From Corallococcus macrosporus DSM 14697 (GTDB taxonomy: Bacteria; Myxococcota; Myxococcia; Myxococcales; Myxococcaceae), in contig NZ_CP022203.1 of NCBI RefSeq assembly GCF_002305895.1, positions 722,501 to 786,500 on the forward strand: a DNA stretch of 64,000 nt, read 5' to 3'. The notes under the pieces were generated by a model. The model worked only from the letters and a program-made list of their open reading frames with translations. It was not told the DNA's origin and did no database searches. Both the position numbers and the translations under genes were made by a program. This document shows positions 57,170-61,709 of the stretch, in pieces. Positions within the stretch are counted from its first letter, which is position 1; each line of letters opens with the position of its first letter.

Positions 57170-57727
57170 ATGCGTGGAATGACATGGGGGCTGGTGGCCG
57201 CCGTGGTGGTGGCGCTCACCGGATGCGGCGAGGACGACACGTACGTCTACGACGTGACGCTGGACGCGGAGACGCTGGCCAACGTGCCCACGGAGTGCTC
57301 CGAATACGTCCAACCCGCCCAGGGCCCCGCGGTGGGCCTCGCGGCGCAGCAGCGCTGGATGATTCGCCGGGGCGACATGGACTCGATGTCCCTGGAGCTC
57401 CCCGACATCGACTTCGAGACGCCGAACAACGCCTACGTCATCAACGGCGACGGCGCGCCGGACGTGCTCACGGGCTCGGCGGGCGCGGACGGCGGCTACC
57501 ATTTCCTCCACATCCAGACGCGCCTGGAGGAGGACCACGCGCTGTTCCCCCTGGGCAACGAGCACGCCTTCCGCATCTCCATCAACACCAAGGACCTGGA
57601 TGACACCATCCAGGGCACCGTCTGGGTCCGCAACGAGCACGTCGAGCAGGACCCCATCACCGGCGCCTCGATTGCCTCCGGCTGCGCGTCCGCCCTCCGC
57701 TTCACGGGCCGCCGGGTGACGCGGTAG
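57170..57727 (+). CDS. Lipoprotein, unknown function
   Basis: 185 residues from ATG 57170 (GAGG upstream). Signal with lipobox VALTGC, so acylated at Cys. The mature part is acidic with alternating strands (YVYDVTLDAETLANVPTEC, MDSMSLELPDIDFETPNN) and a likely disulfide. No family recognised. Its last 26 bp overlap the end of the convergent DUF3037 gene. Confidence 0.82.
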   Translation: MRGMTWGLVAAVVVALTGCGEDDTYVYDVTLDAETLANVPTECSEYVQPAQGPAVGLAAQQRWMIRRGDMDSMSLELPDIDFETPNNAYVINGDGAPDVLTGSAGADGGYHFLHIQTRLEEDHALFPLGNEHAFRISINTKDLDDTIQGTVWVRNEHVEQDPITGASIASGCASALRFTGRRVTR

Positions 57728-58118
57728 CGCGCTTCAGCCGCACCACCGTGTCCAGCAGGTGCTCCAGCGCCGCCTGGGGCTCGGCGCACAGCCCGGAGTG
57801 CACCGGCCCCGTCTGGATGATGGTGCTGCGCGGCGCCACCACCCAGTGCCAGCGCTCCTTCTGGGACAGCCGGCCAATGGGCCCCGAGCCCTTCCCGCCC
57901 TCGCACACGCGGCGGAAGCTCTCCAGGTGGCCGCGAATCATGTCCACGTCCGCCTCGGGCCACAGCGCCCTCAGCCGCGCCTCATCCGGCTCCACGCGCA
58001 CGCCCAGGAAGCGCTGGGTGGCGCAGAAGAGCACGACGCCCGCGTTGATGAACTCCTCGCGCTCCACGCGCGGGACGACGCGGATGATGGCGTAATCAAA
58101 CGAGCTGGGCGCGGGCAC
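57702..58118 (-). CDS. DUF3037 protein
   Basis: 138 residues from GTG 58118 with GAGGAGG upstream. The stretch FDYAIIRVVPRVEREEFINAGVVLFC is the diagnostic core of DUF3037 (read here as YAIIRVVPRVER and EEFINAGVVLFC), with VPRSTIIQTGPVHSGL-like end (RSTIIQTGPVHSG). No known biochemical activity. It overlaps the end of the HipA-like kinase gene by 23 bp, so the pair is translationally coupled. Confidence 0.9.
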   Translation of the reverse strand: MPAPSSFDYAIIRVVPRVEREEFINAGVVLFCATQRFLGVRVEPDEARLRALWPEADVDMIRGHLESFRRVCEGGKGSGPIGRLSQKERWHWVVAPRSTIIQTGPVHSGLCAEPQAALEHLLDTVVRLKRATASPGGP

Positions 58119-58881
58119 GGTCCGCCTCCTCGATGAACGCGGGCACCGCTTCCAGCCGGCGCAGCAGCCAGGTGGTGTAGGCGGCGCGGTGGGCCTCGGC
58201 GGTGGGGAAGGGGGACTCGGTGCTCGTGAGCCACGCCTCCGGAATGGCGCCCACGATGCGCTCCACCACCTCCTGGGTGACGCGCGCGCCAAGCTGCTGG
58301 CCGGCCTCCGTCAGCGCGGTGGCCCACGGCAGCAGCACGTGGTCCCTGATGGGCGCGAAGCGGCCCTGGCTGCGCGCCTCCCAGTCGTCCCAGGAATGGT
58401 GGAAGTACAGCGACGCCCCGTGGTCGATGAGCCACAGGTGCCGGTGCCAGGTCAGCATGTTGGGGTTGCGCGGCGTGCGGTCCACGTTGGTGATGTACGC
58501 GTCGAACGCGACGATGCCGGACGCCTCCGCCGCGGAGGGCGCGGGGTCCGCCACCGGGTCGAACGTCACCGACGCCGGGAGGTAGTCCAGCGCCAGGTTG
58601 AGGCCCGCGCTGGCCTTGAGCAGCTCGCGAATCTCGGAGTCCGGCTCGTTGCGCCCCAGCGCCGGGTCCAACTCCACCAGTACGAGCTCCGGCACCCGCA
58701 GTCCCAGCTCCCGGGCCAGCTCCCCGGCGATGAGCTCGGCGATGAGCGCCTTGGCGCCCTGGCCCGCGCCCCGGAACTTCACGACGTAGAGCCCCGCGTC
58801 GTCCGCCTCGATGATGGCCGGCAGCGAGCCGCCCTCCCTCAGTGGCGTCACGTAGCGCGTGGCGGTGACCGTCCTTGGCAT
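58096..58881 (-). CDS. HipA-like kinase
   Basis: 261 residues from ATG 58881 (GGGAGAG upstream). Kinase-like features: ATP-binding Lys in GLYVVKFRGAGQG, catalytic loop FDAYITNVDRTPRNPNML (D in NVDRTPRNPN), metal Asp in LIDHGASLYF. This is the PI3K/PI4K/HipA fold. It lacks the HipA N-terminal domain, and no HipB antitoxin is next to it; instead it is followed by DUF3037 with a 23-bp overlap. Target unknown. Confidence 0.88.
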   Translation of the reverse strand: MPRTVTATRYVTPLREGGSLPAIIEADDAGLYVVKFRGAGQGAKALIAELIAGELARELGLRVPELVLVELDPALGRNEPDSEIRELLKASAGLNLALDYLPASVTFDPVADPAPSAAEASGIVAFDAYITNVDRTPRNPNMLTWHRHLWLIDHGASLYFHHSWDDWEARSQGRFAPIRDHVLLPWATALTEAGQQLGARVTQEVVERIVGAIPEAWLTSTESPFPTAEAHRAAYTTWLLRRLEAVPAFIEEADRARAQLV

Positions 58882-59071
58882 TTCCGCTCTCCCATCCTCG
58901 CTCCTGGCGTCGTCCCTGGACGCCCGCCGGGCCGCGTCGCGGCATGTAGCATGGCGGCCGGGGTGGGGAGGCGCTGACGCCGCTAATGGCCGGGCGCTGG
59001 AAACTTTGTCCGACACAATGCGACAATCAATTATCGGCGTTTTTTTCTGCCCCCCACGGAGCACCCCCACC

Positions 59072-60691
59072 ATGGAAATCTCTCGCAAGCCGAAGTCGCC
59101 CGTGTCGCAGTCCACCCGCCCCAGCGACACGGCCAGGCCGGCCGCCGCGGCCAGGCCCGTGGAGAAGGCGCCGGCCCAGACGGCGAAGGACGGCTTCGAG
59201 TCGGGGGGCGCGCGGGGCTCCAACTTCGTGGACCGCCCGAAGGGCAACTTCGTGGACCGCCCCACGGGCCTGCCGCCGGGCACCCCGTCCGCGCTGCCGG
59301 CCACGGCCTTCACCTTCGGCTCCGGCCACGTCGCCGTCCGGCCCTTCGCGGACAGCGCGGCCCGGGCCCCGGTCACGCTGAAGGCGTCCGCCACGCCCAA
59401 CGCGAAGGTGAACGACCTCCAGACGACCACGTCCACCGTGTCCTTCGACCAGGACGTGAAGCTGGACTCGCTGAAGCTGAACCTGGACCTGGCGCACACC
59501 TACAAGGGTGACCTGGTCGTCAAGCTGACCAGCCCCTCCGGCAAGACGGAGACCCTCCACAACCGCACGGGCGGCAGCGCGGACAACATCCAGGGTAGCT
59601 TCGACCTGGCCGCCTTCAAGGGCGAGTCCACCAAGGGCACCTGGACGCTCTCCGTCGAGGACAAGGCCCGCCGCGACACCGGCACCCTGAAGAGCTGGAG
59701 CCTGGACGCCGCGGGCCATGCGACGGGCCCGGGCCCCATCGAGGAGCCGCAGAAGCCGCTCTCCGGCCCGCCGGTCATCGCCGTGTTCGACGGCGGCGTG
59801 GACTTCAAGCACTCCGACCTGGATGACGCGATGTGGGTCAACCCGAACGAGGTCGCGGGTGACGGCGTCGACAACGACGGCAACGGCGTCAAGGACGACA
59901 TCTACGGCTACAACGTCGGCTACAACAGCGGCGACGTGATGCGCGGCAGCGGCACGGACCACGGCACGCACGTGGCCGGCATCATCGCCGCCGAGGACAA
60001 CGGCGAGGGCAACACCGGCGTCGCCGCGGGCAAGGCGAAGATCATGAGCCTGGGCGGCCTGTACAACGGCGCGGACCTGCTCACCAACTTCGAGCGCGGC
60101 GTCGACTACATGGTGAAGATGAAGACCGAGCACGGCGTGAACATCCGCGCCGTCAACGCCAGCTTCGGCAACGAGTACCGCAACCCGGCGGACGTGAAGC
60201 GCTGGACGGACGCGGTGCAGAAGCTGGCCGACGCGGACATCCTCCTCGTCGCGGCCACGGCGAACGGCAACGGCAGCAACCTGAACGACGTGCCGGACAT
60301 GCCCGCCAACATCGACCTGCCCAACGTCATCACCGTGGCGTCCATGGACAAGAACAACGACAAGCTCGCGAGGTTCTCCTCCCACGGAGACAAGGTCGTG
60401 GAACTGGCCGCGGTGGGTGAGGACGTGCTGAGCACCGTCCCGGGCGGCCGCTGGGAGGAGATGAGCGGCACCTCCATGGCCACCCCGACGGTGGCGGGCG
60501 CCGCGGCGCTGATGTTCGCCGAGAACCCCAACCTGACGGCCGCCCAGGTGCGCGACCTGCTGGTGCAGACGGTGGAGGTGGACTCCGACCTCAAGGGCAA
60601 GGTCAGCACCAGCGGCAAGCTGGACATCGAGGCCGCCGTCGCCGCCGCCAAGGCCACGCTCGACGACGACACCACGGTCGCCGGGCGCTGA
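59072..60691 (+). CDS. Subtilisin-like serine protease with N-terminal P-domain
   Basis: 539 residues from ATG 59072. Low-complexity N-terminus with a duplicated NFVDRP motif, then a proprotein-convertase P-domain (about 85-215; VKLDSLKLNLDLAHTY, GDLVVKLTSPSG, GTWTLSVEDKA). The S8 domain (about 230-525) has the triad in AVFDGGVDFKHSDLDD (Asp), DHGTHVAGI (His) and MSGTSMATPT (Ser). No signal peptide is visible, so it is cytoplasmic or uses another route. P-domains normally follow the protease domain; here it precedes it. Followed by a textbook terminator. Confidence 0.93.
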   Translation: MEISRKPKSPVSQSTRPSDTARPAAAARPVEKAPAQTAKDGFESGGARGSNFVDRPKGNFVDRPTGLPPGTPSALPATAFTFGSGHVAVRPFADSAARAPVTLKASATPNAKVNDLQTTTSTVSFDQDVKLDSLKLNLDLAHTYKGDLVVKLTSPSGKTETLHNRTGGSADNIQGSFDLAAFKGESTKGTWTLSVEDKARRDTGTLKSWSLDAAGHATGPGPIEEPQKPLSGPPVIAVFDGGVDFKHSDLDDAMWVNPNEVAGDGVDNDGNGVKDDIYGYNVGYNSGDVMRGSGTDHGTHVAGIIAAEDNGEGNTGVAAGKAKIMSLGGLYNGADLLTNFERGVDYMVKMKTEHGVNIRAVNASFGNEYRNPADVKRWTDAVQKLADADILLVAATANGNGSNLNDVPDMPANIDLPNVITVASMDKNNDKLARFSSHGDKVVELAAVGEDVLSTVPGGRWEEMSGTSMATPTVAGAAALMFAENPNLTAAQVRDLLVQTVEVDSDLKGKVSTSGKLDIEAAVAAAKATLDDDTTVAGR

Positions 60692-60798: not shown

Positions 60799-61254
60799 AT
60801 GTCGCTGGATGACCCGCTCAGCCTGGACCGGCAGCTCTGCTTCCCGCTCTACGCGGCGGCCCGGGCCATGACGCAGGCGTATGCGCCGCTGCTGTCGAAG
60901 CTGGGCCTGACGTACCCGCAGTACCTGGTGCTCCTGGTGCTGTGGGAGACGGACGGTGAGACGGTGAAGGGGATGGGGGAGCGGCTGTACCTGGACTCGG
61001 GGACGCTCACGCCGCTGCTCAAGCGGATGGAGTCCCAGGGGCTGGTGCGGCGGGAGCGGAGCGCGGAGGACGCGCGCTCGGTGCGCATCCACCTGACGTC
61101 CGGAGGACGGGCCCTGCGCCGCAAGGCCGCGTCCATTCCCGAGGCGATGGCCTGCAAGCTGGGGCTGACGCTGGAGGAGGCGACCCGCCTGCGCCGCGAC
61201 GTCATGCGGCTTTTCGAAGTGCTTTCGCGGTCCCACGTTGATTCCTCGAAGTAA
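60799..61254 (+). CDS. ohrR: OhrR, MarR-family organic peroxide sensor
   Basis: 151 residues from ATG 60799. The reactive Cys of OhrR is in RQLCFPLYAAARAM (Cys14), with the partner Tyr/aromatic residues further on (AYAPLLSKLGLTYPQYLVLLVLW). Winged helix: LYLDSGTLTPLLKRMESQGLVRRERS. Oxidation of the Cys by organic hydroperoxides releases the repressor. It precedes ohr by 17 bp and lies directly behind an OhrR-like operator, so it autoregulates and controls ohr. Confidence 0.95.
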   Translation: MSLDDPLSLDRQLCFPLYAAARAMTQAYAPLLSKLGLTYPQYLVLLVLWETDGETVKGMGERLYLDSGTLTPLLKRMESQGLVRRERSAEDARSVRIHLTSGGRALRRKAASIPEAMACKLGLTLEEATRLRRDVMRLFEVLSRSHVDSSK

Positions 61255-61271
61255 CGCCCAAGGAGAACACC

Positions 61272-61709
61272 ATGGCTCCCGTCGCCATCAGCCCCCTGTA
61301 CAGCACCGCCGCCACCACCCACGGAGGCCGCGATGGCCGCGTGAAGTCCGAGGACGGCGTCCTGGACCTGCCCCTGGCCATGCCCAAGGCGCTGGGCGGC
61401 GCGGGAGGCGCCGTCACCAACCCGGAGCAGCTCTTCGCCGCGGGCTACTCCGCCTGCTTCGAGAGCGCGCTGCGGCTGGTGGCGCGCATGCAGGGGAAGA
61501 GCCTGGGCAGCGACGCGGGCGTGCGCGCCACCGTCACCATCGGCAAGACGCCGGACGGCGGCTTCGGGCTCGCGGTGGAGCTCCAGGGCCTCCTGCCGGG
61601 CATCCCGAACGAGGAGGCCCAGCAGCTCATGGAGGCGGCCCACCAGGTGTGCCCGTACTCGAAGGCCACGCGCGGCAACATCGACGTGAAGGTCTCCGTC
61701 GCCGGGTAG
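61272..61709 (+). CDS. ohr: Ohr, organic hydroperoxide resistance peroxidase
   Basis: 145 residues from ATG 61272 (AAGGAG upstream). Both redox Cys are present: FAAGYSACFESAL (peroxidatic) and HQVCPYSKATRGN (resolving), plus GGRDGRVKSEDG with the catalytic Arg. Ohr is a dimer that reduces fatty-acid and other organic hydroperoxides using lipoylated proteins. Cotranscribed with ohrR. Confidence 0.96.
   Translation: MAPVAISPLYSTAATTHGGRDGRVKSEDGVLDLPLAMPKALGGAGGAVTNPEQLFAAGYSACFESALRLVARMQGKSLGSDAGVRATVTIGKTPDGGFGLAVELQGLLPGIPNEEAQQLMEAAHQVCPYSKATRGNIDVKVSVAG

Follow-up and report, generated by a model that had tools for sequence, protein, structure and literature searches.

A HipA-like kinase gene overlapping a short DUF3037 gene in Corallococcus macrosporus: a conserved two-gene pair with a possible resident chromosomal role

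The window analysed here is a stretch of 64,000 nucleotides from the chromosome of Corallococcus macrosporus DSM 14697 (NZ_CP022203.1, positions 722,501 to 786,500), and it contains two overlapping genes on the minus strand, one coding for a HipA-like kinase and the other for a DUF3037 protein. The features of this pair are given below in window positions; short-type kinases are those encoded with a short DUF3037 protein.

58096–58881, minus strand: gene for a HipA-like (HipA_2) kinase, 261 aa, ATG start (Pfam, PADLOC, AlphaFold2)
57702–58118, minus strand: gene for a DUF3037-only protein, 138 aa, GTG start (PF11236, PADLOC, structure model)
58096–58118, minus strand: 23-bp overlap of the two genes (sequence reading, locus comparison)
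58125–58130, minus strand: Shine-Dalgarno sequence AGGAGG of the DUF3037 gene, lying within the kinase gene and 6 nt ahead of the DUF3037 GTG
58819–58842, minus strand: Gly-rich loop LREGGSLP of the kinase, residues 14–21, lying between strands 1 and 2 of the model
58459–58488, minus strand: catalytic motif N132-x-D134-R135-x3-N139-x-N141, all invariant in 120/120 short-type kinases
58417–58425, minus strand: metal-binding motif D153-H154-G155, with D153 and H154 in 120/120 short-type kinases
58038–58082, minus strand: most conserved DUF3037 stretch, R13 to G27 (RVVPRVEREEFINAG), with P16, R20, E22, N25 and G27 in 105/105

The kinase gene comes first in the pair and is divergent from a subtilase gene. 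The initial annotation had described a HipA-like kinase lacking HipB, and this description holds, as the protein matches PF20613 (HipA_2) with 77 bits (E 1.7e-21), above the Pfam curated cut-off of 27, and no hipB-like HTH gene adjoins the kinase, whose immediate neighbours are the DUF3037 gene and the divergent subtilase gene. The surroundings are ordinary and consist of housekeeping genes: one flank holds an aminopeptidase-like gene (named from its sequence), a J-domain-like gene, an endonuclease/exonuclease/phosphatase gene and an unannotated gene, and the other holds the subtilase, a MarR regulator and an OsmC-like gene. The subtilase (59072–60691) has a proprotein-convertase P domain and found no match in 2 of the 13 genus loci checked. 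The MarR and OsmC-like genes (60799–61709) resemble an OhrR-Ohr peroxide pair; several members of the genus gave no MarR gene match and retained OsmC. A pattern search at the locus found no promoter or terminator. A TGTCGCA...AGTTTC block at 58990–59070, just upstream of the subtilase gene, is kept where the subtilase is kept and is probably the subtilase promoter; as an operator of the kinase pair it was rejected, since it adjoins the subtilase and is missing in the two loci without a subtilase match.

The AlphaFold2 model of the kinase (pLDDT 95.8) matched the folds of CtkA (Z 16.4), PI4KII (Z 14.0), HipT (Z 11.7) and HipA (Z 11.2), and as modelled the protein is a minimal Hip-type kinase without the N-terminal lid of HipA. 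Sequence searches of solved structures gave no match for the kinase. A search of NCBIfam also came back without a match. Besides the motif residues D134, R135, N139, N141, D153 and H154, K35 is invariant in 120/120 short-type kinases and E49 is found in 119/120; the invariance of K35, D134, N139 and D153 argues for kinase activity. To judge from HipA and HipT, Ser19 of the Gly-rich loop may be a site of autophosphorylation; the alignment has Ser at this position in 119/120 short-type kinases and Thr in 43 long-type kinases.

The DUF3037 protein matched PF11236 over model positions 1–118 of 118 (159.8 bits, E 3.8e-47, curated cut-off 22.6), and it covers the PADLOC model PDC-M66B only at positions 3–128 of 281, ending after the DUF3037 domain. 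Both DUF3037 and HipA_2 are single-copy in the whole 8.97-Mb genome. The invariant polar residues of DUF3037 in the alignment (R20, E22, N25, R89 and Q102) would be unusual for a mere antitoxin and are compatible with a catalytic or sensing role. Its structure model (pLDDT 91.9) found no clear match among solved structures, the best being CYTH-like and Med18 barrels at Z 3.1, too weak to keep either identity, and a sequence search of solved structures also gave no match. HipT is inhibited by HipS through an inserted Trp (PMC10627512). A HipS-like fold was absent among the top matches of the DUF3037 fold search, which at a best Z of only 3.1 is no evidence against one; that the conserved W92 might act like the HipS Trp is only a guess. 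The dN/dS values, which codon bias in this G+C-rich genome affects and which are read only relative to the flanking genes, were 0.1–0.42 for the kinase, similar to the flanking genes, and indicated slow evolution of DUF3037.

The initial annotation had also noted the 23-bp overlap and a tight coupling of the two genes, and comparison with other loci bears this out. All 20 Myxococcota loci that we read share the AGGAGG, the 23-bp overlap and the GTG start. Across phyla the overlap is exactly 23 nt in 66 of 84 loci, a set made up of 4 plasmid records and the best 80 of at least 592 confirmed relatives in a genome scan, the 80 being the closest matches to the query alignment and not a random sample. 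The 23-bp overlap is therefore not a product of chance. Other overlaps are mostly 20, 17, 14, 11 or 8 nt, and nearly all preserve the frame relation. Nine phyla are represented among the genome-scan loci that have the 23-nt overlap: Bacteroidota, Chloroflexota, Pseudomonadota, Myxococcota, Acidobacteriota, Cyanobacteriota, Thermomicrobiota, Ignavibacteriota and Rhodothermota. In 84/84 loci the short DUF3037 gene comes after the kinase gene, including one locus where the kinase is truncated. That the pairing recurs in bacteria, as proposed earlier, is equally clear from genome searches: HipA_2 was present in all 84 Myxococcota genomes with DUF3037, and short DUF3037 genes adjoined a kinase gene in 48/48 Bacteroidota cases. 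The two small genes thus form one operon, are translationally coupled and co-occur, as is usual for type II toxin-antitoxin systems. The truncated kinase is on plasmid p1 of Leptolyngbya boryana (L083, 4962–5634), cut to its C-terminal part with the overlapping DUF3037 gene intact, which would make sense if DUF3037 did no harm by itself; about 1 kb upstream there is a gene for an IS110 transposase.

Searches with DUF3037 returned two separated groups, high-scoring short copies (108–166 bits) and low-scoring copies (mostly below 98 bits), the latter mostly within frames of about 270–310 aa. Proteins of the short branch are about 125–154 aa and consist of DUF3037 only. Short copies dominate among Myxococcota and were found in 48 of 65 positive genomes of Bacteroidota, 44 of 44 of Actinomycetota (296 searched), 10 of 24 of Pseudomonadota (397 searched) and 5 of 7 of Cyanobacteriota (184 searched). 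Two Bacteroidota copies have intermediate scores (G830, 91 bits; G695, 75 bits); they are short, and their kinases fall within the short clade. In an unrooted maximum-likelihood tree, 42 kinases with a short DUF3037 partner were split from 20 long-type kinases by one branch of length 1.01 and support 96/89, the window kinase lying across it from the prophage and other long-type kinases. The short branch has a REGGS Gly-rich loop and an IDHG metal site, whereas the long branch has mostly NEGST and IDHN; the catalytic residues are identical in both. Some genomes carry one short and one long pair together.

The two branches are distributed very differently. The pair was found in 27/27 genomes of the source genus and between the same flanking genes in 13/13 genus loci checked, and elsewhere in other genera; other myxobacterial genera are complete too (for example 16/16, 7/7 and 6/6 genomes). 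Searches of 2.9 million viral contigs and 50,697 phage records yielded no relative of the short type. The viral-contig scans with queries P0002, A1 and A6 returned no relative, and query A5 returned seven matches only, all long-type at 26–32% identity. One long-type phage pair used as a query, by contrast, retrieved 33 viral contigs, 3 phages and 21 plasmids. Seven plasmid records carry a short-type kinase, and these include Bacteroidales records with housekeeping genes. One PLSDB "plasmid" with a short-type kinase, an 11.85-Mb Nonomuraea record (L084, NZ_LT559118.1), is surely a chromosome.

Long-branch genes lie in prophages, plasmids and restriction islands, and their 128 neighbour proteins include type I restriction systems, relaxases and a phage portal protein, whereas no restriction or mobility genes were seen among the 130 neighbours of short-type pairs, a comparison of hand-picked loci with simple gene calls that serves as a contrast and not as a statistic. 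PADLOC matches among the 130 were housekeeping look-alikes or generic families (DndA, SspA, GlgB, subtilase and mad3), and no family occurred in more than three of them, so the neighbours offer no functional clue. In the temperate Klebsiella phage Kp4864-1 (L085, 4234–5810) a long-type HipA-like/DUF3037 pair directly adjoins a CI-like repressor gene, and near-identical copies of this pair recur in IMG/VR contigs. The branch of the window pair is old, non-mobile and core to the genus.

The initial annotation had stated that no function was established for this pairing, and this is outdated, as relatives were shown in 2025–2026 to act against phages through a toxic kinase that DUF3037 holds in check (PMC12548924, PMC13092281). 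A HipA-like kinase and DUF3037 beside Retron-Sda1, described in 2025, form a stand-alone defence system for which the retron parts are dispensable; deletion of the kinase abolished defence against phage Bas51 and deletion of DUF3037 was toxic (PMC12548924). DefensePredictor validated DS-6, in which a HipA-like kinase is paired with a DUF3037+DUF1829 protein; the system was renamed HipAD and is reported there to have been first described by Brenes and Laub in 2025. Its catalytic mutant no longer gave protection, and in AlphaFold3 predictions the two proteins bind each other and DNA (PMC13092281). In both of these tested relatives the DUF3037 protein is long and has an additional C-terminal part.

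HipAD (PADLOC candidate PDC-M66) resembles the window pair in having a kinase and DUF3037 in one operon, no HipB and the same catalytic residues. However, its second protein adds DUF1829, predicted to bind DNA, and is about 280 aa in long-type loci against 138 aa in the window, where this C-terminal part is lacking. HipAD kinases also belong to the other clade, with NEGST and IDHN, and to mobile, prophage or island contexts, whereas the window kinase has REGGS and IDHG and its gene lies in no mobile, prophage or defence-island context. The Retron-Sda1 pair shares the kinase and DUF3037, with toxin and antitoxin roles known from its published test, but has a retron neighbour and a DUF3037 C-terminal part resembling the retron DNA-binding protein. 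HipBST of E. coli and Legionella likewise has a minimal HipA-type kinase without N-subdomain 1 and a separate small partner (Z 11.7), but it has HipS and HipB. The HipBA kinase and the window kinase are of one superfamily (Z 11.2 against Shewanella HipA), whereas the window pair has no HipB, its kinase lacks the N-terminal lid of about 100 aa, and the kinase gene comes first. The closest solved fold is that of CtkA, a HipA-family kinase of Helicobacter pylori (212 residues, 16% identity), for which we know of no DUF3037 partner; a common fold implies nothing about a common function. The window pair is thus related to the HipAD defence systems as tested, but it is not a member of them.

The explanation that we favour, at a probability of about one half, is that an intact HipA/PI4K-type kinase is held by a co-translated DUF3037 partner, as in toxin-antitoxin systems, in a resident chromosomal role and not as a mobile defence cassette. 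DUF3037 would be translated from the 3' end of the kinase gene, and the partner would therefore be made in step with the kinase, bind it and restrain it. Once the restraint was lifted, the kinase would phosphorylate a cellular protein, perhaps a tRNA synthetase as with HipA and HipT, and growth would slow. For the window branch we infer the restraint by binding, and likewise the target, trigger and physiological role of the pair. The short branch would be a resident chromosomal module kept by vertical descent. Because the C-terminal part of the HipAD second protein is absent, the window pair probably does without HipB-style repression of its own promoter. Its job probably differs from phage defence and is built in, because the branch is old, non-mobile and present in every genome of the genus that was searched. 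Of the earlier suggestion of a toxin-antitoxin or defence unit, the toxin-antitoxin likeness stands through the published tests on relatives; the defence part does not stand for this locus, and association with defence islands, which had been proposed as a check, was not seen, there being no defence genes near the pair.

A resident place on the chromosome does not keep a gene from serving in defence, and a HipAD-like abortive infection system that has become fixed in these lineages is a somewhat unlikely alternative. Homologous two-gene systems do defend (PMC12548924, PMC13092281), the catalytic residues are the same in both branches, and the pair matches PDC-M66A/B; the PDC-M66A defence-candidate model even scores the short kinase (94 bits for the window protein) above a phage kinase (50 bits), which counts against our explanation. 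On the other hand, the pair is universal in the genus instead of patchy and evolves slowly, viral collections lack the short type, no defence neighbours were seen, and the C-terminal half of the tested versions is missing. It is unlikely that DUF3037 instead serves a constitutive kinase pathway as activator, adaptor, substrate or enzyme, making this a signalling pair outside the toxin-antitoxin class. Such a role would suit a DUF3037 that evolves slowly, has invariant polar residues and lacks a clear known fold, and it would suit the ubiquity of the pair in several large genera, but the toxicity of DUF3037 loss in a relative (PMC12548924) fits restraint, and the Leptolyngbya locus retains DUF3037 after truncation of its kinase. 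Very improbable, finally, is a selfish or vestigial addiction module without a host role: the two-gene compactness and the lack of conserved neighbours outside the genus would agree with it, but purifying selection like that on the flanking genes, the invariant catalytic residues, the single copy and the absence of mobility genes seen nearby speak against it.

Returning to the resident kinase held by its partner, we tentatively picture an ancient module, single-copy, with a fixed 23-bp overlap, present in nine or more phyla and universal in a number of myxobacterial genera, which may serve regulation and not defence; the mobile HipAD systems would form a sister branch that evolves fast, and DUF3037 would be a conserved kinase regulator whose fold has no clear match. 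Because PDC-M66 of PADLOC can match both branches, many genomes may be credited with phage defence where they really carry a resident kinase pair. Should this branch have a physiological role, comparison of the two branches would show how traffic runs between the kinases of core signalling and the mobile toxins of phage defence, and the single-copy, genus-universal pair would offer a clean genetic system for finding the kinase target and the role of DUF3037.
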